Source: Brachyspira aalborgi
GTDB lineage: Bacteria > Spirochaetota > Brachyspiria > Brachyspirales > Brachyspiraceae
Reading direction: 5' to 3'
DNA: 64,000 nucleotides
Assembly (NCBI RefSeq): GCF_008016455.1
Contig: NZ_SAXU01000001.1
Location: 2,314,423-2,378,422, forward strand
A program made the translations under genes and the position numbers. The first letter of the stretch is position 1; each line of letters opens with the position of its first letter. The notes beneath the pieces are model-generated. The model was not told the origin of the DNA. It searched no databases and was given only the letters and a program-made list of their open reading frames with translations. Shown here piece after piece: positions 11,424 through 61,580 of this stretch.

Positions 11424-11452
11424 TTGATATATTTTTTAATTTATGTTAAAAT
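11424..11452 (+). promoter_or_regulatory. Promoter of leader A
   Basis: TTGATA at 11424-11429 and TAAAAT at 11447-11452 are separated by 17 bases. The core and spacer closely match the promoter of the related leader at 41476 (both run TTGA-y-A-T-ATTTTTTAAT-y-TATGTTA), which supports them as one repeat family. It drives leader A and, beyond it, the GTPase gene at 11732. Confidence 0.6.
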
Positions 11453-11497
11453 TATTTTAAAATAAATTATCAAAAATATTAAAAATGAGATTTAAAT

Positions 11498-11703
11498 ATG
11501 ATAATTAAGAATACTGTAAATTCGTTAAGCAAAGCAAAGCAAAGCAAAGCAAAGCAAAGCAAAGCAAACCTTTAAATTTTTTTCAACATTATGTTTATTT
11601 AATAAATATTATATTTTATTTTCTAAAAAATATTTTAAGTCTATATTTAATATTATTAAAAGAAAAATTAATTTCTTTTTGTTTTCAAAATATTTTTATA
11701 TAA
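11498..11703 (+). CDS. Leader ORF A, frame broken by repeat number (presently OFF)
   Basis: The ATG at 11498 opens a peptide MIIKNTVNSLSKAKQS that enters the AAAGC array. With the present repeat number it stops at 11573-11575. The neighbouring frame stays open for 45 codons after the array (11566-11700) and stops at 11701-11703, 28 bases before the GTPase start codon. One unit fewer, or two more, would join the ATG to that frame. The ON-frame peptide is hydrophobic and rich in Phe, Ile and Leu. The ribosome site before the ATG is weak. Its reality rests on the same architecture at four other loci. Confidence 0.5.
11527..11568 (+). repeat. AAAGC pentanucleotide tandem array (leader A)
   Basis: Seven perfect AAAGC units occupy 11531-11565, with a partial unit on each side. 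The preceding 20 bases (AATACTGTAAATTCGTTAAG) recur, with small changes, beside the arrays at 20553 (opposite strand) and 41571. The array is not a multiple of three per unit, so gain or loss of units changes the reading frame of leader A. Confidence 0.95.
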
Positions 11704-11731
11704 ATAATTTATTATTTAAGGAGATTAAATT

Positions 11732-13561
11732 ATGACTGAAGAACAAAAGAAAAAATGCGAGGAAATATATAATTTACATATTGATTTTCCTCTTAAAATT
11801 AGACCTATTTTTTTACCTAAATTTGGATGGGTTAAAATTGCCATGCTTTTAGCGGAAGTATTTAATAAAAACATAACCGAAGAAGAAGCGGGAGAAATTT
11901 TTGATAATATTTTTAATAATATTGGTAAAATGAATTGCGTTAAGGCTAAGGCTATACTTCTACCTATAGGAATAAATCTAATGAGTCAATCCTATTATAA
12001 AGATATATTTTGGAAAATAGCCAATTATTTTGATAACGGCAATAAAGAAGCAAATAAAATAAATAATGTCGTAGAAAATACGGCGAAGGAGAAAATTATG
12101 ACAGAAGAACAAAAAAAGAAGTGCGAGGAGATTATTAACTCCTACAAATCAAAACTTGGAGATGTTGATATTAGTTTATTAGCAAATCCTTTTAGTAGTA
12201 TTTTCAGTATTTTACAATCAGCCCATCAATATGTAGAAATCACACACATGACTATATCTTTGGCAAAAGTATTTAATAAAGATGTAAGCGAAGAAGAAGC
12301 GAAAAAAATTATATTTGAATTAAAAGAAGACTTAAAAGAAAATCGAGATGATGAAAAATATAAAGATTTTGAAAGTATAAGTTGGGCTATAGTAGATAAA
12401 TTAGACGATGAATTAATATTAAACTTATTAATTTTAGGAAAAACGGGAACTGGCAAAAGTAGTTTAGTAAACGCTTTAGTCGGCGAAGAGGTAGCAAAAG
12501 TAGGAGATGCCGAACCTGAAACAGAAGATATATACCCATATTCCGCTGAAATAGACGGAAAGAAAATCATTATACATGATAGCTGGGGAATGGAAGTCGG
12601 CAAAGAAGATATATGGGACGATATTATAAACAAAAAATTAAAAGAAAAAGGAATTGATAAAGATATTAAAGATTGGTTTCATAGTGTCACATATTGCATA
12701 CAAGCTGGCGGCAATAGAATTGAAGATTTTGATGCAAAGATAATAACAAAATTTATAAAAGATAAATATAATGTAATCGTAGCTTTAACGAAAGCCGAAC
12801 AAATGGGTAAAGAGGATAGAGAAAAATTTACAGAAAAAATTAAAGAAAGAATAAAAAAAGAAATAGAAAAAGAAGATGCAAAAAACGATATTATAGTCGT
12901 TTCGGTATCGGCGTCTCCCAAAAAATTAGACTATATGACTGAAGCTCCAAAACCTTATGGGATTGAAGAATATAAAGCGGCTATTTTAATATCTTGGAGA
13001 GAAATATTTATAAATAGAATTCCTATTCATATAATAGAGAAATTGAAAAAAGATATAGAAAATTCAAAATCTAACGCTCCAAAAGAAGGCAAAGATTTAG
13101 AAAAATTGGCTAAAGAAATACAAAAATATTTTATTAATGTAGTAAAAGAAAAAGTTCAAAATCATGTAAAAGATAATTTTGAAAAATATTATAAAATTAC
13201 TGAAGATATTCTTGTTGCAAGTAAAAATATAGATATATCTAATTTAAATATGTATGGAAGCATAGATGATACTACATATATATTTAGTGCATTTGATTTT
13301 GATTCTAGCGTGCTTGAAAGTATAGGAAACATAGTTCTTATGTTATTATTAGCTCCACTTACTATAGTAAGTGGTTTGCTCGATTTAATTTCACTTATAG
13401 CTTTCAATATAAAAAAATCTGACAAAATAAACGAGTTTATAAACGAAGTAAGCCAAAAAATCATAGATAAAATAAGCGAAGAAGAATTTGAGAGCGAAAT
13501 TAGAAAAATTATTATAAACGCTTTGAATGAAATTGATAAAAAAATAATTAAATTAAATTAA
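11732..13561 (+). CDS. P-loop GTPase with duplicated N-terminal helical domain
   Basis: 609 residues. The GTPase core has G1 GKTGTGKSS (about 236-244), a G3-like DSWG and a G4-like TKAE in place of NKxD, so nucleotide specificity may be relaxed. A hydrophobic segment (about 525-560) near the C-terminus suggests membrane contact. The N-terminus is a duplication: MTEEQKKKCEEI occurs at residue 1 and again at residue 123, and each copy contains an A-x-V-FNK-x-x-x-EEEA helix. The second copy has its own ATG (12098) with an upstream GGAG, so this looks like two genes fused in frame. It resembles dynamin/IRG-like and YcjF-type GTPases of unknown function. It follows leader A and precedes a second GTPase by 20 bases. 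Confidence 0.85.
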   Translation: MTEEQKKKCEEIYNLHIDFPLKIRPIFLPKFGWVKIAMLLAEVFNKNITEEEAGEIFDNIFNNIGKMNCVKAKAILLPIGINLMSQSYYKDIFWKIANYFDNGNKEANKINNVVENTAKEKIMTEEQKKKCEEIINSYKSKLGDVDISLLANPFSSIFSILQSAHQYVEITHMTISLAKVFNKDVSEEEAKKIIFELKEDLKENRDDEKYKDFESISWAIVDKLDDELILNLLILGKTGTGKSSLVNALVGEEVAKVGDAEPETEDIYPYSAEIDGKKIIIHDSWGMEVGKEDIWDDIINKKLKEKGIDKDIKDWFHSVTYCIQAGGNRIEDFDAKIITKFIKDKYNVIVALTKAEQMGKEDREKFTEKIKERIKKEIEKEDAKNDIIVVSVSASPKKLDYMTEAPKPYGIEEYKAAILISWREIFINRIPIHIIEKLKKDIENSKSNAPKEGKDLEKLAKEIQKYFINVVKEKVQNHVKDNFEKYYKITEDILVASKNIDISNLNMYGSIDDTTYIFSAFDFDSSVLESIGNIVLMLLLAPLTIVSGLLDLISLIAFNIKKSDKINEFINEVSQKIIDKISEEEFESEIRKIIINALNEIDKKIIKLN

Positions 13562-13581
13562 AATTTTTTAAGGAGAAACAA

Positions 13582-14691
13582 ATGAATACTGAAGAATTAA
13601 ACGAAAAACTTCAAAAATCTTTCGAGGAGTTGAAAAACAACTTGAAAAAACCGAGCATATTGCTTGCTGGAGGCACGGGCGTTGGGAAAAGTTCGCTAAT
13701 CAATAAGATTTTCGGGCGAGATGTGGCAAAAGTAGAAATTGGAAAACCTGTCACTTCTTTAATAGAAAAATTTGAAAGCGAAGATTTGGGCGTAATTCTA
13801 TACGATAGCCCGGGCTATGAAGTAGACAAAGTCAAACAATTTGAGGACGAGGTTATCGATATTAAGAAAAAAGAAGCCGTTAATTTGGTTTGGTATTGTA
13901 TTCAAGCCTCTGGAAATAGATTAACCGATTATGATATTGAGACGATTAAAAAATTCAGAGAAAATAATTTACCCGTAAGTATAGTTTTTACAAAATGCGA
14001 TTTAGAACCAAAGGAAGAACGAAAAAAATTAAAAGAAGTAATTGATAAAAGGATTGGCGAAATTGATATTTATGAAATGTCCTCTACTGTAGAAGACGAA
14101 TTCTATACAAAAGAATTGCAAAGATTAATTTCGGATGCGATAAAGAAACTTCCCGATATTTTAAGAGACGCTTTTATTTCGGCTCAAAAAATAAGTTTAG
14201 ATGAAAAATGGAACAGAGCGCATGGAGCTATACTTCAACATATAGCTATAGCTTTTGCCGTGCCTTTCAATCCTATTCCTTTTTCAGACGCTCCGATATT
14301 GGTTGCAAATCAAATGGGAATGATAGCGAGAATATTATATATTTACGATTTGGGCGGATTGGAAAATATGCTTAAAGGCGGAGCTGGAGGAGGAATAATA
14401 GGACAATTAATATCGAATCTTGGAAAAACGCTTGCCGTAAATATATTGGCATTCATACCAGGTATTGGAACTTTAGTAAAAGGATTGATAAACGGAGGAG
14501 TTGCCACTTTATTAACTTCGGCGTTGGGAGAAGCGGTTAATATTTCTTGCTATAAAATATACGAGTCCGTTCTTAACGGAAACGAAAATATAGAAGAGCA
14601 AATGAAAATGTTTGGAGATATGGTTCAAAAATATGCAACCGATTATTATAAAAGCGGAAAGAAACCCGAAGATTATAAAAACCCCGATTAA
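13582..14691 (+). CDS. P-loop GTPase with DUF697-like membrane domain
   Basis: 369 residues. G1 is GGTGVGKSS (about 30-38), G3 is DSPG and G4 is TKCD, all close to the Era/TrmE-like consensus. The C-terminal half has alternating hydrophobic helices rich in glycine (for example AFIPGIGTLVKG and NPIPFSDAPILVANQ), the pattern of DUF697/YcjF domains that sit at the inner membrane. A strong AAGGAG precedes the ATG. The 20-base gap from the first GTPase implies one operon and perhaps a heteromeric pair. I cannot assign the cellular role. Confidence 0.88.
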   Translation: MNTEELNEKLQKSFEELKNNLKKPSILLAGGTGVGKSSLINKIFGRDVAKVEIGKPVTSLIEKFESEDLGVILYDSPGYEVDKVKQFEDEVIDIKKKEAVNLVWYCIQASGNRLTDYDIETIKKFRENNLPVSIVFTKCDLEPKEERKKLKEVIDKRIGEIDIYEMSSTVEDEFYTKELQRLISDAIKKLPDILRDAFISAQKISLDEKWNRAHGAILQHIAIAFAVPFNPIPFSDAPILVANQMGMIARILYIYDLGGLENMLKGGAGGGIIGQLISNLGKTLAVNILAFIPGIGTLVKGLINGGVATLLTSALGEAVNISCYKIYESVLNGNENIEEQMKMFGDMVQKYATDYYKSGKKPEDYKNPD

Positions 14692-14705
14692 TTAAATTTA
14701 TGATA

Positions 14706-14760
14706 TAATATTTAGTCGTTAGTAAAAAAGCAAATAAATTTTATTAACGACTGAATATTA
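14706..14760. repeat. Long imperfect hairpin between GTPase and zinc-ribbon genes
   Basis: Arms 14706-14725 and 14741-14760 pair at 18 of 20 positions around a 15-base loop; the core AGTCGTTA/TAACGACT is perfect. It lies 15 bases after the GTPase stop. It could act as a terminator or processing site, although no clear T-run follows on the plus strand. Confidence 0.55.
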
Positions 14761-14786
14761 ATAAAATTATTTTTAAGGAGATATTT

Positions 14787-20023: not shown

Positions 20024-20380
20024 TTAATCGTTTTTTAATTTTATAAGTTTACCTTCATTATCTTTGAAAGTTCCGCTAATTATACAAATTAAATCTATAA
20101 TCGCTCCGATTATAAATCCGCCAAGAGTAAATAAATATAATATACCGCTTACCGTTTTCCCGACATAAAATCTATGCCCGCCAAAAGCTCCCAAGAATAG
20201 ACATAAAAGTAGGCAAGTAGTCCAATCTTTATCGGAAGTATTCTCGCCTCCATATCGTTTTACTCTAACGCCACAGAAAACGCATATTTCGGCTTCTTTT
20301 TTAATAGGTTTCCCACAAGAGCTACAAAAAACCTCGTCTAATTGTTTTTGATAGGGTTGAGTATTATTTACTTCGTTCAT
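20024..20380 (-). CDS. Zinc-ribbon TM2-domain protein
   Basis: 118 residues. N-terminal zinc ribbon (FCSSCGKPIKK then CVFCGVR) followed by a TM2 domain: two membrane helices joined by a short turn, with the hallmark G-A-FGGHRFYVGK and G-I-LYLFTLGGFIIGAIIDLI. TM2 proteins are small inner-membrane proteins of unclear role. The start codon follows AAGGAG, and the stop codon of the ON frame of leader B overlaps that ribosome site (20392-20394). First gene of a three-gene unit. Confidence 0.88.
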   Translation of the reverse strand: MNEVNNTQPYQKQLDEVFCSSCGKPIKKEAEICVFCGVRVKRYGGENTSDKDWTTCLLLCLFLGAFGGHRFYVGKTVSGILYLFTLGGFIIGAIIDLICIISGTFKDNEGKLIKLKND

Positions 20381-20391: not shown

Positions 20392-20636
20392 TTAAAATTT
20401 TAAGTTATTTATAACTAAACAAGAAATTTTTATTTTCCTTGATAAGCTATCAAAATTAAATTTGATTAAAGTTAAAAAAGATTTAACTAAATTTAAAAAA
20501 TATTTTTGAAATAAAAAGTTAAAATAATTATAAATTAAAATATATAATAATAGCTTTGCTTTGCTTTGCTTTGCTTTGCTTTGCTTTGCTTTGCTTTGCT
20601 TTGCTTAACAAATTTACAGTATTTGTTATTTATCAT
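20392..20636 (-). CDS. Leader ORF B, frame broken by repeat number (presently OFF)
   Basis: The ATG at 20636 has a ribosome site AAGGT eight bases upstream and opens MINNKYCKFVKQSKAKQS. With ten AAAGC units it reads on into a stop at 20535. The frame two bases over is open for 52 codons (20550-20395) and ends in a TAA (20394-20392) that overlaps the AAGGAG of the TM2 gene. Nine or twelve units would connect them. Fifty-two stop-free codons are unlikely by chance in DNA this AT-rich. The ON peptide is Phe/Leu/Asn-rich with no recognisable domain. Confidence 0.55.
20553..20606 (-). repeat. AAAGC pentanucleotide tandem array (leader B)
   Basis: Ten perfect units (GCTTT on the plus strand, AAAGC in the direction of the leader) plus a partial one. 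The bases upstream in leader direction match the leader-A flank (AATACTGTAAATTTGTTAAG), with one extra base before it that shifts the reading frame relative to leader A. Confidence 0.95.
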
Positions 20637-22445: not shown

Positions 22446-22715
22446 AAATATTATCATTGTGAGTGTTGCCATAGGAACATAGCGTAAGACATTGTAATAT
22501 AGATTTAAAAAATTTAACTTTAAAAATTTTGTTTAGTTAGTAAATGAATTTTATTAAAGATGGATTGCTTAGCTCGTTTCAATCACTATAAATGACGATT
22601 TGATAAAGTTATAATAATAATTTTTCTATAAAATTAAAAATATGTATGAAATGTATTATTAAATTGTTAAAAATATCTAAAATAAAAGTTAATTAATAAA
22701 TAATTTAAATTTATA

Positions 22716-22743
22716 TTGACATTATTTTTAAATATTGTATAAT
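22716..22743 (+). promoter_or_regulatory. Promoter-like unit P1 of a four-fold array
   Basis: TTGACA (22716-22721), 16-base spacer, TATAAT (22738-22743): both boxes are exact consensus. First of four similar units between the methyltransferase gene and ORF C. Confidence 0.65.
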
Positions 22744-22768
22744 AGTTAATAAATATTTAAATTAATTA

Positions 22769-22797
22769 TTGACAAAAATTTTTAAATATTATAAAAT
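22769..22797 (+). promoter_or_regulatory. Promoter-like unit P2
   Basis: TTGACA (22769-22774), 17-base spacer, TAAAAT (22792-22797). The surrounding bases repeat those of P1 (a TTTAAAT-type stretch before the -35 box and AAATATT before the -10 box), so it looks like a diverged tandem duplicate. Confidence 0.55.
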
Positions 22798-22849
22798 ATT
22801 GTTAAATTAAATTAATTAATCAATATTGAAAAAAAATTTAAATAAACTA

Positions 22850-22970: not shown

Positions 22971-23499
22971 ATGATAGTAAAATATTTATCTTATAGTTTG
23001 GGTTACCGTCAACCGTCAACCGTCAACCGTCAACCGTCAACCGTCAACCGTCAACCGTCAACATGAGATAAATTTATTCTTTGCAAAATTTTTATATAAT
23101 TTAGTTCAGTTATTTTTTAATGTAATTCATTGCGGGCTTAAAAAATTTAAGGCTTGGCAATCAACTTTTAAAAAAATTAATTTTAATAATTTTGAAATAA
23201 TAAGTCTTTTAGATTATGGCTTTTGCTATAATTACGGCTTTAATCATAATGAGAATAATCTAAAAAATTATAATTCTTCGGTTAATGAAAATTATAATTT
23301 TGCATTCGGTGAAAATTGCAATTTCGTAAAATCTTTTAATTACGATTTTGTAAACATTGAAAGCAAAAATTATAATTTGTCAAAAATCGGAAATTATAAT
23401 TCTTTAAATGGTTCTTGTTATGGTTTTTGGCGTATTTATTGCATTTGCGATAATTTGAAGGATTTTTTATTTAATACGAAAAATCAAAAAAAATTTTAA
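22971..23499 (+). CDS. ORF C: Asn/Tyr-rich repeat protein, frame broken by a 7-bp repeat (presently OFF)
   Basis: ATG at 22971 opens MIVKYLSYSLGY and enters the CCGTCAA array; with eight units it stops at 23064-23066. The frame one base over is open from 23062 through 145 codons to TAA 23497-23499, far longer than chance allows here, and has no usable start codon of its own between its upstream stop (22978) and the array. Seven or ten units would restore one protein of about 175 residues. Its C-terminal half is built of degenerate 8-residue units such as NENYNFAF, GENCNFVK, SFNYDFVN and IGNYNSLN, suggesting a stacked beta structure. No signal peptide or known family is evident. It ends 14 bases before the TRAP gene, just ahead of its AAGGAGAG site. 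Confidence 0.75.
23006..23061 (+). repeat. CCGTCAA heptanucleotide tandem array
   Basis: Eight perfect 7-bp units. The unit is GC-rich compared with its surroundings. Three units encode the peptide RQPSTVN in any frame, so the encoded peptide stays the same and only the downstream frame changes with copy number. Confidence 0.97.
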
Positions 23500-23513: not shown

Positions 23514-24509
23514 ATGAAAAAGATTTTTCTAACAACAATAGCTTTGCTTTCCATATTAATTAATATTGGATGTTCTGGAGGAGGTAAAGATGCCGTTAGA
23601 TTAAAAATGAGTGTTACAACTAGTGAAACTTCAACTTGGGTAATTTCTGCTAAAAAATTTGCTGAAGTTGTTAAAGAAAAAACGGATGGTAAAGTAATAA
23701 TTGATGTTTATCCAAATGAACAGCTATCGGGTGGTAACCAATCTAAAGGAATAGAGATGCTTTCAAGTGGCATTACAGATTTAAGTTGGCATTCTAATCT
23801 AATTTGGGCTTCTATAGATACTAAATTTGGTGTAATATCTTTACCTTGGATTTATCAAGATGAAAACGAAGCTGAACTTGTATTGAGTGGAAAGGCGGGA
23901 GATGCTATAAAAAAGTTAACTTTAGAAAAAGGCGTAGAGTGTTTGGCATTTGGCGAAAGCGGTTTTAGACAAGTTAGTAATAATAAAAAACCTATATTAA
24001 CTCCAAAAGATTTGATTGGTATAAAAATGAGAGTTCCAAATATAGGTATGCTTGTAGATGTGTTTAGGATTTTGGGAGCTAATGCTGTTGGAATGAATTG
24101 GTCTGAAGTTTTTACCGCTTTGCAGCAAAATACTATAGACGGTCAAGAAAACCCATTGGATGTTATGATGTCAGCCAAAATAGAGGAAGTTCAAAAATAT
24201 TTAACGGCATGGAATTATTGTTATGATGCTTTAATTTTAGGCATAAATAAAAAGAAAATGGATTCTTTAAGTTCTGAATATCAACAAATAATAAGAGATT
24301 CAGCTTTAGAGGCTGCTCAAATGCAAAAAAGTTTAAATAGGCAAATTATTGAAAAACAATTCAAGCAGTTAGAAGCTTTGCCTACTATACAGGTAACTTA
24401 TTTAACGGATGAACAAATATCTGTATTCAGAGAAACTGTTAGACCAATATATCAAAAATACGAGCCTCTAATGGGCAAAGATTTAGTAGATTTATTCGTT
24501 AGAAATTAG
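23514..24509 (+). CDS. TRAP transporter solute-binding protein (DctP family)
   Basis: 331 residues with a lipoprotein signal (lipobox NIGC, Cys about 20), so the binding protein is lipid-anchored. The DctP fold is shown by SAKKFAEVVKEKT, the N-EQLSGGNQ-type loop and the conserved carboxylate-binding Arg173 in GIKMRVPN, followed by MNWSEVFTALQQ-T-I-DGQENP. It captures an organic acid for the DctQM permease encoded next. The ligand cannot be named; the neighbouring dehydrogenases suggest a hydroxy or keto acid. A strong AAGGAGAG precedes the ATG. Confidence 0.93.
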   Translation: MKKIFLTTIALLSILINIGCSGGGKDAVRLKMSVTTSETSTWVISAKKFAEVVKEKTDGKVIIDVYPNEQLSGGNQSKGIEMLSSGITDLSWHSNLIWASIDTKFGVISLPWIYQDENEAELVLSGKAGDAIKKLTLEKGVECLAFGESGFRQVSNNKKPILTPKDLIGIKMRVPNIGMLVDVFRILGANAVGMNWSEVFTALQQNTIDGQENPLDVMMSAKIEEVQKYLTAWNYCYDALILGINKKKMDSLSSEYQQIIRDSALEAAQMQKSLNRQIIEKQFKQLEALPTIQVTYLTDEQISVFRETVRPIYQKYEPLMGKDLVDLFVRN

Positions 24510-41544: not shown

Positions 41545-41619
41545 ATGAATAAAAATACTGTAATTTTGTTAAGCAAAGCAAAGCAAAGCCATAATTATAT
41601 TTTAAATAATAATTTATAA
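41545..41619 (+). CDS. Short leader ORF F before SpoIID gene
   Basis: ATG at 41545 opens MNKNTVILLSKAKQS, the same start as leader A, passes through a three-unit AAAGC array and stops at 41617-41619 (24 codons). Unlike the other five, no longer frame runs on towards the next gene, 82 bases away, and the ribosome site is weak. It is best seen as a short or decayed member of the AAAGC-leader family. Confidence 0.35.
   Translation: MNKNTVILLSKAKQSHNYILNNNL
41571..41589 (+). repeat. AAAGC tandem array, three units (leader F)
   Basis: Three full AAAGC units preceded by AAGC. The upstream flank AATACTGTAATTTTGTTAAG matches the flanks of arrays A and B, showing a dispersed family in which the number of units varies from 3 to 10. 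Confidence 0.85.
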
Positions 41620-41701: not shown

Positions 41702-42844
41702 ATGAAAATAATTAAATCCTTACTTATCATAGTTTTTTTATTTATTGCGAGCGAATCCGTTTTTGCAACTACTATAAGAGTTCATTTAACCGATGTGAAA
41801 GCGCCTTATACGATTAATATTAAAGGACCTTATAAAGCTTATAATTACAAATACGAAAGCGAAATTGTATCGGCATTGACAAACGAAACGGTTATGGTTG
41901 TCGAGCATAGATTGGGGCTTAAAGTAAATAATGTCGGCATTTATAAAGAAGGAATAGTTTTTGAAACAGCGGACGGATTTATATTAAACGGAAAAGAATA
42001 TTACGGTTCTTTAAAATTTATTCCTTATAAAGGCGATATGATAGCGATAAACGAATTAAATATTGAAGATTATGTTAAAGGCGTTTTGCCTCATGAAATG
42101 TCTCCCGATTGGCCAATCGAAGCTTTGAAATCTCAAGCGGTTGCGGCGAGAACTTACGCTATGTTTCATATATTAAAAAATAATGGCGAGCTTCCTTACG
42201 ATGTTGACAATACTACAAAATATCAAGTTTATAACGGAAAAGAAAAAATTAATTGGACTGTAGAACAGGCGGTTGACAGAACAAAATACGAAATAGCGGT
42301 TTATAAAAATAAAGTTATCGCGACATATTTTAGCGCTTTATGCGGAGGACATACTGACAGCGCAAAAAATGTTTTCGGAACTGCAGTGCCTTATTTGGAA
42401 GGCGTTCAATGTCCTTACTGTAACGCTCAAATCAAAACTTGGACTAACGCTTTAAGCTATAAAGAACTCAATAACGATTTGGCAAATTATTCGGTTAATG
42501 CGGATGAAAAATCTTCTATAGGAATGACTATGGACCCAAAATCTGGCAAAGCCGTAAATATAAAAATTGACGATAACGATATTTCTTCAAGAGATTTTAG
42601 AAGCATTCTCTCGCCAAAATTAGTGCCTTCGCTTAATTTTACGATAAACAAAATTGACAACGGCATTATAATAACGGGAAAAGGAAGCGGACATGGAGTC
42701 GGAATGTGTCAATGGGGCGCTTATGGAATGTCTCAAGTAAAAAAAGATTATGAAGATATTTTAAAATTCTACTATAAAGGAATAGATATAGTAGATTATA
42801 ACAATATAAAATCTCTTGCGCCTGATATTTGGGTAGAAAATTAA
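41702..42844 (+). CDS. SpoIID/LytB-domain protein
   Basis: 380 residues with a signal peptide (cleavage near VFAT, residue about 24), so it is periplasmic. The SpoIID domain is clear: YVKGVLPHEMSPDWPIEALKSQAVAARTYA, with the catalytic Glu in PHEM, then FSALCGGHTDSAKNVFG, a pair of Cys (VQCPYC) and the terminal GSGHGVGMCQWGAYGMS. SpoIID proteins are lytic transglycosylases that cut denuded peptidoglycan. Spirochaetes do not sporulate, so here it is a cell-wall enzyme. It is flanked by leader F and a terminator. Confidence 0.92.
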   Translation: MKIIKSLLIIVFLFIASESVFATTIRVHLTDVKAPYTINIKGPYKAYNYKYESEIVSALTNETVMVVEHRLGLKVNNVGIYKEGIVFETADGFILNGKEYYGSLKFIPYKGDMIAINELNIEDYVKGVLPHEMSPDWPIEALKSQAVAARTYAMFHILKNNGELPYDVDNTTKYQVYNGKEKINWTVEQAVDRTKYEIAVYKNKVIATYFSALCGGHTDSAKNVFGTAVPYLEGVQCPYCNAQIKTWTNALSYKELNNDLANYSVNADEKSSIGMTMDPKSGKAVNIKIDDNDISSRDFRSILSPKLVPSLNFTINKIDNGIIITGKGSGHGVGMCQWGAYGMSQVKKDYEDILKFYYKGIDIVDYNNIKSLAPDIWVEN

Positions 42845-52358: not shown

Positions 52359-52530
52359 ATGATAACGGTGAATAAATTCTCATCTCATCTCATCTCATCT
52401 CATCTCATCTCATCTCATCTCATCTCATTGCTATAATTATAGCAAGTTTTGTCATTTTAAATTTTTTATTACAAAATTTAATTATATATTTAGAAATCTG
52501 AAAGAGCATGGTTTTGGAGTTAAATCATGA
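52359..52530 (+). CDS. Leader ORF D, frame broken by repeat number (presently OFF)
   Basis: ATG at 52359 with a good GAGGT ribosome site eight bases upstream opens MITVNKFSSH and enters a (TCTCA)10 array. At ten units it stops at 52434-52436. The frame one base over is open for 33 codons after the array and ends in a TGA (52528-52530) that overlaps the next gene's start as ATGA, the classic coupling arrangement. Eleven units would connect ATG and long frame. The ribosome site of the next gene (TTGGAG) lies inside the ON frame. Confidence 0.6.
52378..52427 (+). repeat. TCTCA pentanucleotide tandem array (leader D)
   Basis: Ten perfect TCTCA units. It is preceded by AATAAATTCTCAT, also found just before the array of leader E (GATAAATTCTCAT), which ties the two as relatives. 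Confidence 0.97.
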
Positions 52531-55514
52531 TTCTTTTCGACATATTATATAATATAACAATTTATCCAATAGAGTTTATAATAGAAATTGTATTTTATTT
52601 ATTTAATAATGTATTCAAATCTGGTTATGCTACAAGTTTATTCTTTTTAAGTTTAATTATAAATTTTATCTCTTTACCTTTATACAATATAGCAGAAAGT
52701 TGGCAGGCAAAAGAAAGAGCTATTCAAGAAAAAATGAAACCTATGATTGATAATATAAAAGCGGTTTATAAAGGCGACCAAAGATATTTATTAATTAGAG
52801 CTTGTCAAAGAATTAACGGCTATAAAACAATTTATGCATTCAGAGGAACTTTAGGACTGCTTATACAAATTCCTTTTTTCTTGGCTGCTTATAATTTTAT
52901 TCATAATCTCTCGGGCTTGCAACTCGGCAGTTTTTTATTTATAAAAGATTTTTCAAAGCCTGACGGAATATTAAATATTGGAGATATTAGCGTTAATATT
53001 TTGCCATTTATTATGACATTATTTAGTTTATTAGCTGGTTTGGTTTATAGCAAAAAATTAAGATTTAAGGAAAGTTTGCCGTTATATATTGTTTCGTTAA
53101 TATTTTTAGTTTTGCTTTATAATTCGCCTTCTGGTTTAGTATTTTATTGGACATTGAATTGTTTATTTTCATTGATAAAAAATATTTTTATAGAATATAA
53201 ATTATATAAAGTCTTTGTAGTGAATAAATATAAGATTTTAAGAGGTTATAATATATTTTTTATAATATTAACAATTATTTTTATTTTGCTTTTATCTTTA
53301 GGAAATATTGAGAGAAAAGCTTATTTATACGATTTTTCTTTTGAAGAAGTATTACAAGAAAAAAATATGATGTATTTATTCCGATTAAATTTTTATAGCA
53401 AAATATTTAGAAATAGCGATATTTATGGACTTAAAGTTGATACGAATAAATTAAATAACGATTCAATTATAGATATAAAATTTGACTATAATGGCAGTCC
53501 TTATGGAAATATAATATTAAAGGATTATATTGAAAACATAGGAAAAATAGAAGTTTATTATAAATTATTTATTAAAAAATATATTATAAATATTCTTATA
53601 ATATTATTTATTTTATTTATATTATTCAATAGTTATAAATACATTTTAAAAATATTTTCGGATAGTTTTTTAGAGAAAAGAAATTTATTGATTATAAGTT
53701 CCTGTTTGGTTATAAGCGTATTATCGGGGCTATTTATTTCAAGTTCTTTAATCGGAAATTCGCCGACAGAATTTAAAAGTCCTTTCGATTTAATAATAAA
53801 TGATTTATCTATGAGTTTGGGATTATTTTTATTTTATCCGTTATTTATTTATGTTTTATTTTCAGAAAATATAAAAAATTATTTAACTTTATTATTAATA
53901 TTCGTAGCTTCTTTTGTTTTGGTAAATACATTTATAATGAAAGGAAATTATATAAATATTAACGCGGATTTTGTATTTGATAATACAGATTTATTGAAAG
54001 CTTCATTAAAAGAAATATTATTAACGATTATTTTAGCAGTTGTTTTAATTTCAATAATTATTTTAATCATTAAAAAGAATAAAGCGATATTTTTAATTAA
54101 TATTTATTCTATAGTTTTATTGGTTTTAATAAGCATTTCAATATTTGATATTTCAAAAATAATTAAAGAACATAATAAATTGAGCGATAGCCAAATAGAG
54201 AGCGATAAACCTTCCACTACAAAAATATTTAATATTTCAAAAACTGGCGAAAATGTATTTGTATTTGTTTTGGACAGAGCGATTAATTCGTATTGGCTTG
54301 ACGCTTTTGAGAGATTTACTAATTATAAAAAAGATTTTGACGGATTTGTATTTTATCCTAATAATGTTTCTTTTTCACAGTCAACCATAAGTATTGGCTC
54401 ATTATATGGCGGATACGATTATTTACCTTATGAAATGAGTATTGACGGCGGTTATAATATTACTAAATTCCATAACGAAGCGTTGCTTACAATTCCTTTG
54501 GCTTTAGAAAAGTATAATTATAAATCTTCTGTGATTGACCCTCCATATGAAAACTTATTGGGTGATACATATAAGAAAGTATTTAAAGATTATACTAATA
54601 TATCAGTTTATAATAGTTCTTCAATACTTAATTATAGTTTGAATAATTACCTAAATTTGGATAGTAATTTTAATATAGAAGAATTAGCTAAATTAGAACA
54701 AAAAAATAAAATAATAAGATTTTCCATATTTAGAATGCTTCCAATTAATTTTAGAGCTGATTTTTATAGAGATAAAAGATGGTTTTTAACTTCTTCATCT
54801 TTCATAAGAATTAACTCAAGCATAAAATATTATTCTATGTTATTATCAACCCCCTATTTTCTTAATACAAAGAAAAGCGGTAATTATTGTAATGTTATAT
54901 ACAATATTATAACTCATGAACCTGCTTTCTTTTCTTCGGATTTTTTGCCTCATTTGGAATTAAATGAAGTTGATAATAAGGATATGATTATTTTTAAAGA
55001 CGATAATTCAGTCAGACATTTTTATGCAAATATTGCTTCTATTAATTGTATGACAAATTTTATAAGTTATTTAAAAGAAAACGATATTTATGATAATACT
55101 AAAATAATAATCGTTTCGGACCATGGGGCTGGAGTTAATACTACTTCCACAAATAAAAATATAAATTTTATTAATCCTTATAACGCTTTACTAATGTATA
55201 AAGATTTTAATTCTAGAGGCGAAATCAAAATAGAAACAAATTTCATGACAATAGCCGATACTCCATATTTAGCCACAAAACATATACCGAATATACAAAA
55301 TCCGTTTAATAATAAATTGATTACCAACGATTATAAAAACAAAGGTGTTTATTTAATAAGAGTTAATTCTTGGAGACCTGAAGGGCAATTTTCAAATCGC
55401 TATAATTTTAACCAATATTATTATGTTAAAGATAATATTTTTGATATTAATAATTGGAAAAAATTTGTTGTAGATTGGAAAACTAAAGAAACAAAGGAAA
55501 TTGAATTAAAATGA
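52527..55514 (+). CDS. YidC/Oxa1-like domain fused to a sulfatase-like phosphotransferase
   Basis: 995 residues. Residues about 1-235 match YidC/Oxa1 insertases: helices at about 7-30 and 33-55, then the cytoplasmic WQAKERAIQEKMKPMIDNIK hairpin, GLLIQIPFFLAAYNFIHNL and the NSPSGLVFYWTLNCLFSLIKN end. Further helices follow (about 245-265, 350-370, 387-407, 425-465, 490-545). The C-terminal third is an alkaline-phosphatase superfamily domain: VFVFVLDRAINSYW (about 577-590), SQSTISIGSLYGG and VSDHGAGVN (Asp865, His866), like LtaS-type enzymes. I infer a transferase of glycerol- or ethanolamine-phosphate groups onto a surface glycan. First gene behind leader D. Confidence 0.85.
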   Translation: MILFDILYNITIYPIEFIIEIVFYLFNNVFKSGYATSLFFLSLIINFISLPLYNIAESWQAKERAIQEKMKPMIDNIKAVYKGDQRYLLIRACQRINGYKTIYAFRGTLGLLIQIPFFLAAYNFIHNLSGLQLGSFLFIKDFSKPDGILNIGDISVNILPFIMTLFSLLAGLVYSKKLRFKESLPLYIVSLIFLVLLYNSPSGLVFYWTLNCLFSLIKNIFIEYKLYKVFVVNKYKILRGYNIFFIILTIIFILLLSLGNIERKAYLYDFSFEEVLQEKNMMYLFRLNFYSKIFRNSDIYGLKVDTNKLNNDSIIDIKFDYNGSPYGNIILKDYIENIGKIEVYYKLFIKKYIINILIILFILFILFNSYKYILKIFSDSFLEKRNLLIISSCLVISVLSGLFISSSLIGNSPTEFKSPFDLIINDLSMSLGLFLFYPLFIYVLFSENIKNYLTLLLIFVASFVLVNTFIMKGNYININADFVFDNTDLLKASLKEILLTIILAVVLISIIILIIKKNKAIFLINIYSIVLLVLISISIFDISKIIKEHNKLSDSQIESDKPSTTKIFNISKTGENVFVFVLDRAINSYWLDAFERFTNYKKDFDGFVFYPNNVSFSQSTISIGSLYGGYDYLPYEMSIDGGYNITKFHNEALLTIPLALEKYNYKSSVIDPPYENLLGDTYKKVFKDYTNISVYNSSSILNYSLNNYLNLDSNFNIEELAKLEQKNKIIRFSIFRMLPINFRADFYRDKRWFLTSSSFIRINSSIKYYSMLLSTPYFLNTKKSGNYCNVIYNIITHEPAFFSSDFLPHLELNEVDNKDMIIFKDDNSVRHFYANIASINCMTNFISYLKENDIYDNTKIIIVSDHGAGVNTTSTNKNINFINPYNALLMYKDFNSRGEIKIETNFMTIADTPYLATKHIPNIQNPFNNKLITNDYKNKGVYLIRVNSWRPEGQFSNRYNFNQYYYVKDNIFDINNWKKFVVDWKTKETKEIELK

Positions 55515-56843: not shown

Positions 56844-58313
56844 ATGAAAGCTATAATATTAGCCGCTGGTATGGGAACGAGACTCTCTCCTATGACTTTA
56901 TTAAAACCAAAACCTTTGCTTGAAATTAAAGGAAAAACCATTTTAGAAAATATGATAAAATTTTTAAATCGTGGAGGAATAAACGATATTACCGTAGTTA
57001 CGGGTTATAAACATGAATTGTTTGACGAATATAAAGAAAAATTAGGATTTAAAAAAGTCGTATATAAAGATTATAAAAATAAAAATAGCAGCTCTTCTCT
57101 AAAATTTGTAATAGACGAAATAGAAAAAGGAACTATAATATTGAACGGAGATTTATTTATAAACAAATCTTTTATTGAATATATAAAACCGAATATTTCT
57201 CAATTATTATCTCAACAAATTACCGAAGGAGTAATTTCTTGGGGATATATAATAGACAGCAATTTTAAATTAATAGATATAGATACAAACGCTATAAACG
57301 GATACGGAGACGGAATAGCGATATTTGATAATGAAGAAGATTTAAAGATTTTGAAAAAAGAATTAATAAATTGCAGCGATGAAGAATATTGGGAATATTG
57401 TATATTAAGAGCTATTGATAAAATAAATTTCTACTCTTTTAATTATGACGATATTTATACGGAAATAGATTCGTTTAAAGACGCCTTATATCATAATTTA
57501 TTAACTCCCGAAGAGATAGCACAACAATGCAGTGACGATGGAAAAATAGAAAGACTCGCTGGAATAACAAATATTAATTATAAGATTAAATTTTTAAATG
57601 AATATAAGGTTATAAGAATTCCTGGCAAAGGAACTGAAAATATAATAGACAGAACTTCGGAAAAAGAAATTTTAAATATTTTATACGATAAAGATATAGT
57701 TCCTAAAAGCGATTTTTACGATAGCGATATAAAATTAACCGATTATTTAGAAGGTTATAGGTCTTTAGATTTTGACGACTTAAAAAATTACGAGACAATT
57801 TTTCCTTTAATAATTAAACAAATGAAAAAACTTCATTCTATGCCACACGATAATTATAAAAATTTTAATGTTATATCTATGATAGAAGAAATTAAAAAAT
57901 ACGAGAAACTTGCAAATATAATTTTGGTTACAAAAATAGAACATAAATTTTTGCTTAATATAGCAAGAAAAATGGACGAGGGTAAACAAGTTTTATGCCA
58001 TAGAGATTTGCAACTTCCTAATATAATGTATAACGGCAAAGAAATAAAATTTGTAGATTTTGAATATTCTGGATTTTCTTCAATACTTTGGGAAATCGGA
58101 AACTTTACGGCGGAATTAGAATTAAATGACGAACAAATTAATAAATTTATAGAATTATATAAAGACATAACTTATAGAGAAATAATCGAAGGACAATTAA
58201 TGTCTAATTATGTATGGGCTTTATGGGGATGGATTTACGATTCAATAGATTTGGGAAGAAATTATTTAACAAGATTTCATTATAATCTAAATTATTTAAT
58301 GAAAAGTAATTAG
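56844..58313 (+). CDS. LicC-LicA fusion: cytidylyltransferase plus choline kinase-like protein
   Basis: 489 residues. Residues 1-230 form a nucleotidyltransferase (ILAAGMGTRLSPMTLLKPKP, ILNGDLFI) like LicC choline-phosphate cytidylyltransferase. Residues about 235-489 form a choline/ethanolamine kinase fold with the Brenner motif HRDLQLPN (His386, Asp388) and the metal-binding FVDFEYSG (Asp405). Together they would phosphorylate choline and make CDP-choline. The gene is followed 11 bases later by a DMT permease, as expected for a LicB-type importer. Substrate could also be ethanolamine or another amino alcohol. Confidence 0.87.
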   Translation: MKAIILAAGMGTRLSPMTLLKPKPLLEIKGKTILENMIKFLNRGGINDITVVTGYKHELFDEYKEKLGFKKVVYKDYKNKNSSSSLKFVIDEIEKGTIILNGDLFINKSFIEYIKPNISQLLSQQITEGVISWGYIIDSNFKLIDIDTNAINGYGDGIAIFDNEEDLKILKKELINCSDEEYWEYCILRAIDKINFYSFNYDDIYTEIDSFKDALYHNLLTPEEIAQQCSDDGKIERLAGITNINYKIKFLNEYKVIRIPGKGTENIIDRTSEKEILNILYDKDIVPKSDFYDSDIKLTDYLEGYRSLDFDDLKNYETIFPLIIKQMKKLHSMPHDNYKNFNVISMIEEIKKYEKLANIILVTKIEHKFLLNIARKMDEGKQVLCHRDLQLPNIMYNGKEIKFVDFEYSGFSSILWEIGNFTAELELNDEQINKFIELYKDITYREIIEGQLMSNYVWALWGWIYDSIDLGRNYLTRFHYNLNYLMKSN

Positions 58314-58324
58314 GATAAAATATA

Positions 58325-59200
58325 ATGAAAAGAGATAAAATTTTAGGACATACTTTTGCATTTTTAAGCGTTTTATTCTGGTCTTCTTTATATGTTTCTA
58401 CAAAAATACTGCTTGAAAGTTTTAATCCGCTTGAATTGTTGGTTTTGCAATTTTGTATGGGATATATTCTATTGCTCATAATTAAACCTAAAAGACTAAA
58501 ATTAAATAATAAAAAAGAAGAAATATATTTTGCTCTCGCGGGATTAACGGGAATAACTATTTATAATTTATTTTTAAATTTAGCTATGAGTTATTCGCTC
58601 GCTTCAAATGTAAGCGTTATAATCGCCGCAGCTCCATTATTCACGGGAATATTTTCGTTTATATTGAGAATTGAAAAGCCTTATATTAGTTTTTTTATAG
58701 GTTTTATAGTTTCTATTATTGGAATTACTATATTAAGTTTTAACGGACAAGCCGAACTTAAATTAAATCCTTTAGGAGATATTTTAGCTATAGTCTCAAG
58801 CATAGGTTGGGGACTTTATTCGGTTATAATAAAAAATATAACGGATATGAAATACGATATTATTTTATCCACAAGAAAAGTAATATTTTATGGAATAATA
58901 TTTATGATTCCGTCTTTTCTATTTTTAGATTTTCACCCTAATTTTAAAGCGTTTGCAAATCCTATAACTTTATTTAATATGATATTCTTGGCTACATTTG
59001 CTTCTGGAATATGTTTTATAATATGGAATAAAGCTACCGATTTGATAGGAGTTATTAAAACAAATATATATGTTTATTTAACTCCCGTAATTACAATATT
59101 TGTTTCTATAATAGTATTGAAAGAACATATAACGATTATTGCAATTGTAGGCATTGCATTAACTTTAGCTGGCGTTATAATTTCAGAGTTAAGATATTAA
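58325..59200 (+). CDS. DMT-family permease, candidate choline importer (LicB-like)
   Basis: 291 residues with ten predicted helices in two EamA repeats (WSSLYVSTKILLESFNPLELL opens the first; GDILAIVSSIGWGLYSVIIKN opens the second). By sequence it is a general EamA/DMT transporter. Its position after the LicC-LicA fusion suggests it brings in choline or a related amino alcohol, like LicB in Haemophilus and streptococci. Confidence 0.85.
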   Translation: MKRDKILGHTFAFLSVLFWSSLYVSTKILLESFNPLELLVLQFCMGYILLLIIKPKRLKLNNKKEEIYFALAGLTGITIYNLFLNLAMSYSLASNVSVIIAAAPLFTGIFSFILRIEKPYISFFIGFIVSIIGITILSFNGQAELKLNPLGDILAIVSSIGWGLYSVIIKNITDMKYDIILSTRKVIFYGIIFMIPSFLFLDFHPNFKAFANPITLFNMIFLATFASGICFIIWNKATDLIGVIKTNIYVYLTPVITIFVSIIVLKEHITIIAIVGIALTLAGVIISELRY

Positions 59201-59310
59201 ATTTAAAATTATATTGATAAAATTCTTTAATTATTTATAATATTAAACAATTCTAATATTTTTAATTTTAAGGAAAAATTTTTATGAATATTTTTTGTTT
59301 TACAAATTAA

Positions 59311-59438
59311 TTGGAAGACTAAAAAAATAAAAGAAATTGATTTAAAGTGATTAAATTTTTTTAAAAGAATTTTAAGGAGTAAAAATGATTTTATCCGTTG
59401 TAGTTTTATTTATAATAATTCAAAGCAGTCTTTTTTGC
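59311..59438 (+). pseudogene. Remnant copy of the YidC-sulfatase / TagF-like gene junction
   Basis: This stretch repeats 55476-55612 (the 3' end of the sulfatase gene, the ribosome site AAGGAGT and the first 18 codons of the TagF-like gene) with a few changes and an internal gap. It keeps an ATG at 59385 (MILSVVVLFIIIQSSLFC) but soon leaves the homology and stops at 59463. It is the scar of a lost or exchanged gene pair. The rest of the gap 59201-59542 shows only a possible promoter. Confidence 0.8.
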
Positions 59439-59542
59439 AAAATAATAGCTCTAAAATATTTTTAAAAATTACTTGATTTACAAAATAAAATATATTATCA
59501 TTTAAAATCAATATTTAACTTTTATAATTTGCGGAGATTGAA

Positions 59543-61282
59543 TTGAAAATTAAAAAAATATTATATAATTTTTATATTAACTCTTTTATAATTATTTCAA
59601 TATTATATTTTACGATAACTCAATTTTTACTTCCGTCACTTTCGATTGACAGATTTAAAATAAGTTTTATAGATATATTATATATTTATTTATTTTCTTT
59701 AATTTCTTATTTTCTTTCAAATAAAAAATTGGTAATCTCTTATTTGTTTATTATAGTTTCGGTTTTTTCATTTTTTACAATAGAACCTTTAGGAATAACT
59801 ATTTTAACTAAACCGATATTTTTTACAGATATGGAATATTTATATCCTTCGCTAATTGAAGTTTTGCCATTTTATATGCAAATAATTACGATAGCGGCTA
59901 CAATATTATATTTTTCTTCGCTTTTTGCATTTTCAATATATTTTTTATATAGATTAATTAAAATATTTTTGATTGATAAGAAAAAAGGAATTATATTATT
60001 TTTTATAATTTTAATTACTACTTATTTATCGTTTTTTAGAGAAGTTAAAATTAATTCTATATATCCAAATTATATTGAAAGAGTAAATAAATTTGGAATA
60101 ATAAATTCAATAAGTTATAGAATTTCTTTCGACAGAGAAAATAATAAAGTAATTGCAAATATTGATAATGTTAAAAATGCGATTGAATTATTAAAAGAAG
60201 TTCAAAATAAAAGAGAGATTTCAAATTTAATTATGCCTTACGATTATACTAATAAAAGAAATGTTTTTATAATTTTTATGGAATCATTTTACGATTATAG
60301 TCATTTTTTAGAATTGTTTGATAAAGACCCTTTTCCAAAAGAATATAGAGAATGGGCTTTACAGTCGTCAAAAGTCGGACCGAACGATGGGAACGGAAGT
60401 TTATTTGCAAGGCTTTCGGGTTTAATTGGAACTTCGCCGATTTATCCGAAAAAACAAAAAAGCAAGGTAAATACCGCTTTGCCTTTTTTAATGAAAAACG
60501 CTGGCTATAAAACAATCGCGCTTGAAGAATGCGGAATAACTTTTAATTTAGACAAATTATTTCCAAATATTGGATTTGAAGAAATTATATTTAACTTGGG
60601 ACTAACAAACATAAAAAATTATATAAAGAATAACGATTTTGAAGAGCCTGTATTCGTTTCTGGATTTACATTTTTGGGGCATGCTGGAAGTCATATAAAA
60701 AATGATTTTAATATTTTTGAAAACAATAAAAGATTTTACGAAAAAATTAATCGAAAAGATAAAAAAGTTTTGCTTGAAACTATGGAAAATTCCGTTATGG
60801 CTGCAATTGATATAATAGAAACTAAAAATATAATTCTTCAAAAATATCCCGATGCGATTATAATTTTTAAGCATGACCATTTATATCCTTATTTGGCGGG
60901 AATGATTTATAATTCTTCTGTAGACGAAAATATAAAAAAAGAATTTTTTGAATCTTACGCTATTAGTCCGCTTTTAATATGGAATGGCAGAAACGGAGCT
61001 TTTAAGTTGGAAGACGGATTTCCGCCCGAAAATATTCCGTTATTTATAGCCGTAAATACTAAAATTAATTGGACGAATTCTATAATTTCGCTTTTATATA
61101 AAGATAAAACGGAAGGAATTATAAGATTTTATAATAATTTTTATACGAACGAAAATAATAAAATTATCCGAATAGAAGTTAGTAAAGAAAGTTTGTCTTA
61201 TAAATATAATTACGCTCAAAGAATTTTATCGGAAGATATTTTAAGAGGCGAAAAATATTTTAACGATATAATAACTCGATAA
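59543..61282 (+). CDS. LtaS-like sulfatase-family membrane phosphotransferase
   Basis: 579 residues starting at TTG behind GCGGAG. Five N-terminal membrane helices (about 12-30, 43-60, 65-90, 110-135, 150-167), then an extracytoplasmic alkaline-phosphatase superfamily domain: NVFIIFMESFYDYS (Glu246, Ser247), the SSKVGPNDGNGSLFARLSGL region in place of the LtaS Thr loop, and IIFKHDHLYPYLAG (about 440). Architecture matches lipoteichoic acid synthases and phosphoethanolamine/phosphoglycerol transferases. Its 3' end is duplicated at 62678-62780. Confidence 0.87.
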   Translation: MKIKKILYNFYINSFIIISILYFTITQFLLPSLSIDRFKISFIDILYIYLFSLISYFLSNKKLVISYLFIIVSVFSFFTIEPLGITILTKPIFFTDMEYLYPSLIEVLPFYMQIITIAATILYFSSLFAFSIYFLYRLIKIFLIDKKKGIILFFIILITTYLSFFREVKINSIYPNYIERVNKFGIINSISYRISFDRENNKVIANIDNVKNAIELLKEVQNKREISNLIMPYDYTNKRNVFIIFMESFYDYSHFLELFDKDPFPKEYREWALQSSKVGPNDGNGSLFARLSGLIGTSPIYPKKQKSKVNTALPFLMKNAGYKTIALEECGITFNLDKLFPNIGFEEIIFNLGLTNIKNYIKNNDFEEPVFVSGFTFLGHAGSHIKNDFNIFENNKRFYEKINRKDKKVLLETMENSVMAAIDIIETKNIILQKYPDAIIIFKHDHLYPYLAGMIYNSSVDENIKKEFFESYAISPLLIWNGRNGAFKLEDGFPPENIPLFIAVNTKINWTNSIISLLYKDKTEGIIRFYNNFYTNENNKIIRIEVSKESLSYKYNYAQRILSEDILRGEKYFNDIITR

Positions 61283-61299
61283 TTTTTTTCTTAAAATGA

Positions 61300-61327
61300 T
61301 TGACAAAAATTCTAAATATTGTATAAT
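61300..61327 (+). promoter_or_regulatory. Promoter of leader E
   Basis: TTGACA (61300-61305), 16-base spacer, TATAAT (61322-61327): both boxes are exact consensus. It begins 18 bases after the stop of the LtaS-like gene. Confidence 0.85.
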
Positions 61328-61416
61328 ATTCCTGTAAATTAATTAAATAATGAATAAACGAACAACCGAAGAGAGAAACTTTCGGATTAAATCTATTTAA
61401 CGGGAGATAAATTCTC

Positions 61417-61580
61417 ATGAACGCAACGCAACGCAACGCAACGCAACGCAACGCAACGCAACGCAACGCAACCTACAACTATATCTTACAATCAATAATT
61501 ATTTAAAATTTAATTTATCGCTCTTTTTACTTTCGCTATTTATCATTGCAATTTGGGGACTATTCTATGCCTCTATTTAA
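61417..61580 (+). CDS. Leader ORF E, frame broken by repeat number (presently OFF)
   Basis: ATG at 61417 with a strong GGGAG site upstream opens an array-encoded peptide (NATQR repeated). At ten units it stops at 61504-61506. The frame two bases over is open for 35 codons after the array and ends at TAA 61578-61580, overlapping the start of the glycosyltransferase gene (ATG 61567) by 14 bases, so it would carry ribosomes through that gene's TTGGGGA site. Nine or twelve units would connect. The ON peptide is strongly hydrophobic. Confidence 0.55.
61420..61472 (+). repeat. AACGC pentanucleotide tandem array (leader E)
   Basis: Ten perfect AACGC units and a partial one. The flank GATAAATTCTCATG is shared with leader D. 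Confidence 0.97.

Follow-up and report, generated by a model that had tools for sequence, protein, structure and literature searches.

Short leader frames with slippery tandem repeats as probable phase-variable translation gates in Brachyspira

Repeat-bearing leaders in a 64-kb window of Brachyspira aalborgi

The window analysed here is a stretch of 64,000 nucleotides (G000:C1:2314423-2378422) from the genome of the gut spirochete Brachyspira aalborgi, designated G000 in our numbering (2,504,147 bases, 8 contigs). This bacterium has many short reading frames directly 5' of genes, each with a slippery tandem repeat whose length seems, from the arrangement of the frames, to set the access of ribosomes to the gene behind it. 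An earlier note on this DNA had pointed to five such leaders, at 11.5, 20.6, 23.0, 52.4 and 61.4 kb. The leaders, their arrays (located by Tandem Repeats Finder) and the genes that they precede, called main genes below, are listed here with window positions; phase ends are given relative to the main ATG.

11498..11735, + strand: leader open reading frame (ORF) of the 11.5-kb locus; ATG at 11498, open phases end at 11703 (-28) or 11735 (+4)
11527-11568, + strand: array of the 11.5-kb locus; AAAGC, 8.4 units, perfect
11732..13561, + strand: main gene of the 11.5-kb locus; GTPase-domain protein (MMR_HSR1)
20392..20636, - strand: leader ORF of the 20.6-kb locus; ATG at 20636, open phase ends at 20392 (-11)
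20553-20606, - strand: array of the 20.6-kb locus; AAAGC on the minus strand, 10.8 units, perfect
20024..20380, - strand: main gene of the 20.6-kb locus; TM2-domain protein
22971..23499, + strand: leader ORF of the 23.0-kb locus; ATG at 22971, 144-codon open phase ends at 23499 (-14)
23005-23062, + strand: array of the 23.0-kb locus; CCGTCAA, 8.3 units, perfect
23514..24509, + strand: main gene of the 23.0-kb locus; DctP solute-binding protein
41545..41619, + strand: degenerate sixth copy; leader start and short AAAGC array
52359..52530, + strand: leader ORF of the 52.4-kb locus; ATG at 52359, open phases end at +4 (ATGA) and -25
52378-52428, + strand: array of the 52.4-kb locus; TCTCA, 10.2 units, perfect
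52507..52529, + strand: predicted hairpin CATGGTTT / AAATCATG of the 52.4-kb locus; main start codon paired, GGAG in the loop
52527..55514, + strand: main gene of the 52.4-kb locus; 60KD_IMP-domain protein
61417..61580, + strand: leader ORF of the 61.4-kb locus; ATG at 61417, open phase ends at +14
61420-61472, + strand: array of the 61.4-kb locus; AACGC, 10.6 units, perfect
61567..62658, + strand: main gene of the 61.4-kb locus; glycosyltransferase family 61 (GT61)

Tandem Repeats Finder and a frame analysis confirmed all five arrays, ATGs and post-array frames of the earlier note. Each array is preceded by an ATG whose frame stays open as far as the array, and the frames behind the arrays (44, 52, 144, 33 and 35 codons, in the order of the loci) end at -28, -11, -14, +4 and +14 relative to the next ATG. 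The ATG is indeed off the long frame at the present unit number, all five loci being OFF in the assembly, and a shift by a single unit brings each of them into an open phase. The note had assumed a single restoring phase per locus, which holds at 20.6, 23.0 and 61.4 kb, whereas two phases are open at 11.5 and 52.4 kb; the +4 phase at 11.5 kb yields an ATGA overlap with the main ATG at 11732. The order of the elements is shared by the five loci, except that the 20.6-kb locus runs leftward, on the minus strand, to a gene at 20380-20024. The promoter claimed for each locus was found, as a sigma-70-like match, upstream of four leaders (P<=0.01 versus shuffles), but the best match at 11.5 kb is not better than in shuffled sequence (P 0.22). 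At 61.4 kb the main start is likelier the ATG at 61567, with GGGG before it, than the TTG at 61546.

Open runs of such length were supposed to be rare. This is true at 23.0 kb (P 0.0005), 20.6 kb (P 0.02) and 11.5 kb (P 0.03) but not at 52.4 kb (P 0.32) and 61.4 kb (P 0.81), so that the statistical weight has to come from the whole set and from orthologs rather than from single open runs. The 11.5-, 20.6- and 41.57-kb loci, moreover, share one leader sequence and are therefore not independent cases; in the degenerate copy at 41.57 kb (array 41571-41589) no phase extends to the next gene, a SpoIID-domain gene at 41702.

Two peculiarities of the window loci may be added. A 54-bp repeat in about three copies (22671-22844) lies 5' of the 23.0-kb leader and holds a promoter-like TTGAC plus TATAAT. 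The 52.4-kb main protein (52527-55514; 995 amino acids) shows an unusual pairing of a 60KD_IMP (YidC-like) domain near the N-terminus with weak sulfatase/phosphodiesterase matches near the C-terminus.

Frames behind arrays are open more often than expected by chance

The window and 20 evenly spaced 20-kb stretches of G000 make up a sample of 464 kb, in which perfect arrays of at least four copies, at least 20 bp and a period of 1-12 were recorded. There are 21 such arrays: sixteen with 5-bp units, four with 7-bp units (20 of the 21 taken together) and one AT dinucleotide, with no triplet units. The 20 stretches alone hold 15 arrays in 400 kb, which extrapolates to about 94 per genome (53-155). 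Six of the arrays with 5- or 7-bp units were set aside, namely three at the 3' ends of ORFs, two in the N-terminus of lipoprotein-like ORFs (L152:14577 and L157:18193) and one paralog of the 23.0-kb locus. A locus was scored as open if at least one frame ran from the array to a point no more than 35 bases from the next Shine-Dalgarno-preceded ATG, and the expectation came from genes without arrays in the same DNA, scored over matching distances.

Arrays are followed by a frame open to the next start more often than chance allows: 13 of the 14 leader-type loci are open versus 4.35 expected (P 2.5e-7), and with a limit of 12 bases the count is 12 versus 2.36 (P 5e-9). Since the five window loci had prompted the question, the nine loci outside the window constitute the fairer test; eight are open, versus 3.01 expected at the wider limit (P 3e-4) and 1.60 at the 12-base limit (P 2e-6), both P values being derived from rounded expectations. 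Some of the sampled loci share upstream modules, which makes the P values somewhat too small. The failing locus is L156:1166, where the main start was placed by hand. Together with the orthologs described below, these counts give good support to the placement, in the earlier note, of the switch on a leader frame that ends near the next start. The proportion of loci open as assembled (4 of 30 in G000, with about 12-13 expected, and 8 of 15 among the MBOAT orthologs) is not used as support; L139 is counted as closed in the former tally, a stop straddling its array end.

One near-identical promoter and leader start (ATTAGTAG...ATG) is found at L139:511-610, L140:13734-13829 and L145:4056-4102, before three unrelated genes and each time with a different unit. 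The paralog of the 23.0-kb leader (L145:18211-18241) precedes a gene of the Pfam family Serpulina_VSP, which one sampled gene matches at 1.7e-94. One 144-codon leader is common to the Serpulina_VSP gene downstream of the paralog and to the DctP gene of the window (leader 22971-23499), and leaders therefore seem to move between genes.

The leader is kept across species and the repeat is exchanged

We compared the loci with 25 further Brachyspira species, each represented by one genome. Relatives of the 52.4-kb gene with 74-79% identity come from ten species (further copies in G009, G013, G016 and G022 were left out of the set). Eight of them (G004, G005, G041, G022, G016, G009, G014 and G021) carry, in the same place, a 7-bp array of the GTCAACA type with 9 to 21 copies; in G005 and G022 the fetched contig starts within the array, so the ATG is not visible. 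The two array-free orthologs, in G020 and G013, retain the Shine-Dalgarno sequence, the ATG and a leader ORF, which ends at +1 and +11. A more distant relative in G006 (64% identical) has five copies of TTCTCAC with flanks like those of the TCTCA array, so that between G006 and G000 the unit has, to judge from these flanks, been replaced and the site kept. No array was found in any of the other three relatives at 64-67% identity (G011, G002 and G008).

The second family is that of an MBOAT gene (L145:2548-3957 in G000), which has a 5-bp array soon after the ATG both in B. aalborgi and in 14 close orthologs (83-85% identical), i.e. in 15 of 15 loci, the broken copy in G010 being left out. Up to rotation there are five units: AATAC, ACAGC, ACCGC, ATCGC and AACCG. 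GGAG stands before the leader ATG in the 14 loci of other species, not in G000, and each of the 15 loci has a phase whose stop lies at +19, +11, +1 or -2 relative to the main ATG; eight of the 15 are ON as assembled. A distant MBOAT paralog (40-43% identical) has no array at the 14 loci retrieved, among which L213 and L214 are not read from a clear start. In the third family, that of the 61.4-kb gene, leaders of 35, 38, 68 and 52 codons (G000, G006, G002 and G017) all end at +14, and no array was seen at eight other loci (three more were unreadable). The earlier note was hence right that the units differ while the architecture is kept, and this is true across species.

Further GTCAACA arrays before open frames were met in G008 (L163), G005 (L164), G014 (L169) and G020 (L160, ending at -22, and L167, where no main start was found). 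Sampling 200 kb each of G009 and G007, without selection, yielded three arrays, with units of 5, 7 and 4 bp, all of leader anatomy, one of them being the MBOAT locus of G009 and gaps of such lengths being often open by chance; the density is 3 in 400 kb, versus 15 in 400 kb of G000. Fetched relatives of the 11.5-kb GTPase gene and the 23.0-kb DctP gene had no array (stored strand, first 1700 bases), and the related-locus search for the latter returned only Sedimentibacter-type or clostridial DctP genes.

A dispersed AAAGC leader cassette

The sequence TACTGTAAATTNGTTAAGCAAAGC occurs 21 times in G000 at no more than three mismatches (0 for a reversed control pattern), 12 times in G006, once in G015 and in none of 38 other genomes searched; the 11.5- and 20.6-kb loci therefore belong to a leader cassette that is dispersed over the genome. 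Lipoprotein-like genes follow about nine of its 21 copies (judged by eye), and four copies have degenerated or cannot be used (L033, L041, which lies at a scaffold gap, L048 and L050). Twelve copies of varying length could be aligned, with 0 stops in the frame leading to the main gene versus 80 and 92 in the other two frames; these copies were picked for an alignable frame and 3' part, which biases the set towards open frames. There is a weak tendency towards synonymous substitutions (P 0.04) and away from stops (P 0.02), a pattern that fits a frame held open more than a peptide held intact. A conserved leader peptide as the product was rejected, the substitutions being only weakly non-neutral. 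A hairpin within the cassette leader covaries in 14 sequences, its covariation score being reached in 0 of 500 shuffles and its number of pairs changed on both sides in 42 of 500; it leaves the main start free, and its T tract is poor.

Most cassette copies also have a small CCGA-GAAA-TCGG hairpin right before the leader Shine-Dalgarno sequence (e.g. L042, about 1445-1480). At L156:5745-5780 the 5' region of the cassette carries a different unit, CAACG, at the same place. L040/L041 (G000:C1:2000654-2000943) comprise an N scaffold gap between two copies of one cassette and its array, which probably reflects faulty assembly at the repeat.

Predicted start-masking hairpins in two families

The predicted cost of opening the main start of the 52.4-kb gene, its G006 relative and the eight orthologs with 7-bp arrays is 9-21 kcal/mol, compared with 5.0 (sd 2.2) for 111 array-free genes. 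In ten aligned sequences of this family (eight with arrays, two without), 94% of cells pair, versus 52-59% with the partner slid; two pairs are changed on both sides (reached by 168 of 500 shuffles), and the covariation score is reached by 6 of 500. Pairing is thus evident from the alignment, whereas covariation is modest. For MBOAT, early codons pair with the Shine-Dalgarno region at 9-11 of 11 positions in 15 of 15 species, with one-sided changes only, and the predicted opening cost has a mean of 11.0 kcal/mol but is only about 7 in G000 and G012. In both families the leader ends inside or near the masked region, and leader translation plausibly opens the predicted hairpin. The stop of the upstream frame lies at or near the downstream start in the window and at MBOAT, as in coupled genes. 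The translational coupling suggested in the earlier note is accordingly supported, by predicted start-masking hairpins, in two families, one of them that of the 52.4-kb gene. On the basis of these predictions, we assign a likely read-out to the 52.4-kb and MBOAT families alone. From array to main gene, the five window leaders hold no strong intrinsic terminator.

Variation between strains of B. hyodysenteriae

A plasmid of 32-36 kb from nine B. hyodysenteriae strains (L246-L254) carries strain-variable 5-bp arrays at gene ends in sugar operons; the end of the preceding gene takes the place of the leader there, and two kinds of site are followed by strong terminators before the next gene. In six strains whose 20-base flanks are identical, the array that ends an acetyltransferase gene has 13, 7, 11, 7, 9 and 12 units. 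In eight strains, the one that ends an amidoligase gene has 13, 10, 8, 11, 10, 8, 8 and 11 units, its flanks varying by a single base (strain WA1, whose record begins in the array, was set aside). Two further sites show smaller variation. Terminators were computed in four of the nine plasmids. The phases at the amidoligase site stop at +3, +94 or +155; a terminator of -20 kcal/mol extends from +62 to +97, ahead of the next ATG at +126. Five strains have the +155 phase and three the +94 phase. At the acetyltransferase site the phases, all three of which are occupied, stop at +6, +11 or +58, and a terminator of -26 kcal/mol spans +44 to +79. The scanned stretch at the fucosyltransferase and methyltransferase sites contained no terminator. 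Given this layout, the arrays of the sugar operons are likely phase-variable attenuators.

Interpretation and alternatives

The anatomy of the leaders, its excess over chance, its conservation across species, the turnover of units, the strain differences in copy number elsewhere in the genus and the predicted hairpins are shown by the sequences, and we consider it probable that the leader loci are phase-variable translation gates. Such a gate would be formed by a short leader ORF, in most cases behind a promoter that can be recognised, and by a 5- or 7-bp array directly after its ATG, the number of units being altered by replication slippage. In the permissive phase or phases, ribosomes would run from the leader ATG to the main start, in the others they would usually halt soon past the array, and the main gene would be well expressed only upon the arrival of leader ribosomes. 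In the 52.4-kb and MBOAT families these ribosomes would open the hairpin over the main Shine-Dalgarno sequence or start codon, which amounts to translational coupling; in the polysaccharide operons of B. hyodysenteriae the same logic seems to act on intrinsic terminators, i.e. by attenuation.

Our confidence is evenly divided on a broader view, in which a genus-wide layer (about 50-155 arrays in B. aalborgi, by extrapolation) would have as its conserved part the gated frame from leader ATG to main start, with the repeat as an interchangeable mutable cartridge that genes could lose, regain with a different unit or pass on to one another. A start-masking hairpin, a terminator or a fusion could each serve as the read-out, and loci whose two open phases end at different places may have three levels of expression rather than two. 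The units are 5 or 7 bp long (4 bp once), never a multiple of 3.

Several points weigh against the gates. The case is composed of sequence-derived anatomy and predicted hairpins, and unit numbers were compared between strains in the B. hyodysenteriae plasmids, the window loci being known from one B. aalborgi strain. Over all 19 leader loci there is no excess of start masking versus controls (P 0.17), for which reason it was rejected as a general read-out. Hairpin-plus-T sites of -6 kcal/mol or lower are present in 28% of the leaders of B. aalborgi versus 15% of 66 controls, no clear excess, and terminators, none of them strong in the window leaders, were likewise rejected as the general read-out in this species. 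L156:1166 and three degenerate cassettes are without an open frame or main gene, short gaps are frequently open by chance, and the early-stop phase (+3) of the amidoligase site is occupied in none of the eight strains. Finally, the gate frame is in frame with the main ORF at nine cassette loci (L031, L032, L034, L035, L039, L042, L045, L046 and L047), which is compatible with fusion too.

Among the alternatives, it is conceivable, if rather doubtful, that the leaders act everywhere by phase-variable transcription attenuation, as in Streptococcus gallolyticus, with leader translation blocking a terminator or Rho-dependent termination within the leader. The B. hyodysenteriae plasmid loci, which combine array, phases and terminators, fit this, as do the covarying hairpin of the AAAGC cassette and a hairpin of -6.9 kcal/mol followed by TTTTGT in the MBOAT leader of G000. 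The absence of strong intrinsic terminators from the five window leaders, the lack of a clear excess across leaders and the poor T tract of the cassette hairpin argue against it as the general explanation.

In the contingency genes of Haemophilus and Neisseria, phase variation is in-gene, with slippage of a non-triplet array shifting the frame. It is improbable that our leaders are of this kind, the leader frame simply being the N-terminus of the main protein and the array switching an ordinary ORF. The arrays at L152 and L157 do lie within the main protein's frame, and the nine cassettes whose gate frame continues into the main ORF might be fused to it. However, the gate frame stops near the main ATG, before it or out of the main frame, at all five window loci as well as in the orthologs of MBOAT, GT61 and the 52.4-kb gene. 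The main starts have a Shine-Dalgarno sequence of their own, and in the cassettes with a fused frame a signal-peptide-like start sits about 50-75 residues from the N-terminus, an odd position in an exported protein. Unlike in the contingency genes, the array here belongs to a leader ORF distinct from the main protein, in most cases ending where the main gene starts.

It is very improbable that promoter, spacing or mRNA stability is what the repeats act on, with the open frames a by-product of AT-rich DNA. The two shortest window frames are unremarkable singly (P 0.32 and 0.81), and at the lenient limit 90% of controls are open over gaps of about 60 bases, but the arrays sit 3' of promoter and leader ATG, the set exceeds chance, array-free orthologs retain the leader, the four GT61 leaders end at +14 whatever their length, and triplet units are absent from the 464-kb sample.

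Known systems and the genes behind the leaders

The earlier note knew of no described system with this architecture, but one exists. In S. gallolyticus, GCAGA repeats in a leader peptide gene switch expression of pil1 via a terminator, as demonstrated with variants and mutants, and pil3 is described likewise (PMC3894217). The two systems have in common non-triplet 5-bp repeats in a leader ORF with its own start, the number of units setting where the leader ends, and a long phase that permits (in our case, would permit) downstream expression (PMC3894217). They differ in that pil1 and pil3 are two pilus operons with one unit, a terminator read-out and proof by mutants (PMC3894217), whereas Brachyspira has dozens of loci, several 5- and 7-bp units and predicted start-masking hairpins in two families, and its window loci lack strong terminators and are known from sequence alone. 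Differences in unit number between isolates, a trait of pil1/pil3, were seen in the B. hyodysenteriae plasmids, and a terminator between array and main gene was met at two plasmid sites, not at the five window loci. The leaders also resemble ordinary translational coupling of adjacent genes (discussed in PMC3711429), where the upstream frame ends at or overlaps a downstream start lying in a hairpin; the upstream frame here is, by contrast, a dedicated leader that can be switched by its repeat. The switching principle is, then, already proven in S. gallolyticus, and what is new is the scale, the interchangeable units and the predicted start-masking hairpins. A literature search, with most subscription journals outside its scope, found no account of repeat-driven switching in Brachyspira; two Brachyspira papers searched by term have "phase variation" solely in the title of a reference or where they comment on Vsp proteins, and PMC6779451 does without the term.

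By Pfam, the genes behind the leaders encode GTPases (one dynamin-like), TM2, DctP, 60KD_IMP, glycosyltransferase 61, MBOAT and PTS EIIC proteins, an ABC ATPase, a short-chain dehydrogenase, a beta-barrel protein and a Vsp protein, several being without a match; envelope functions are common among them, not exclusive. If the gates work, many lipoprotein, envelope-enzyme, transporter and Vsp-type genes would be heterogeneous in every culture, with consequences for the choice of antigens, for typing and for genome annotation, which is affected because an OFF gene appears intact. A switch known from one streptococcus would become a general design, and the natural alleles found (ON, OFF, array-free and with different units) make the model testable.

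The three 5-bp arrays at ORF 3' ends that were set aside above (L140:4906-4949, 9309-9380 and 11734-11775) have different units, two of the ORFs being radical SAM and epimerase genes. They were rejected as gates, having no frame to the next gene and no strong terminator behind them. All three are followed by similar sequence (TAATGTTTGAATA...).

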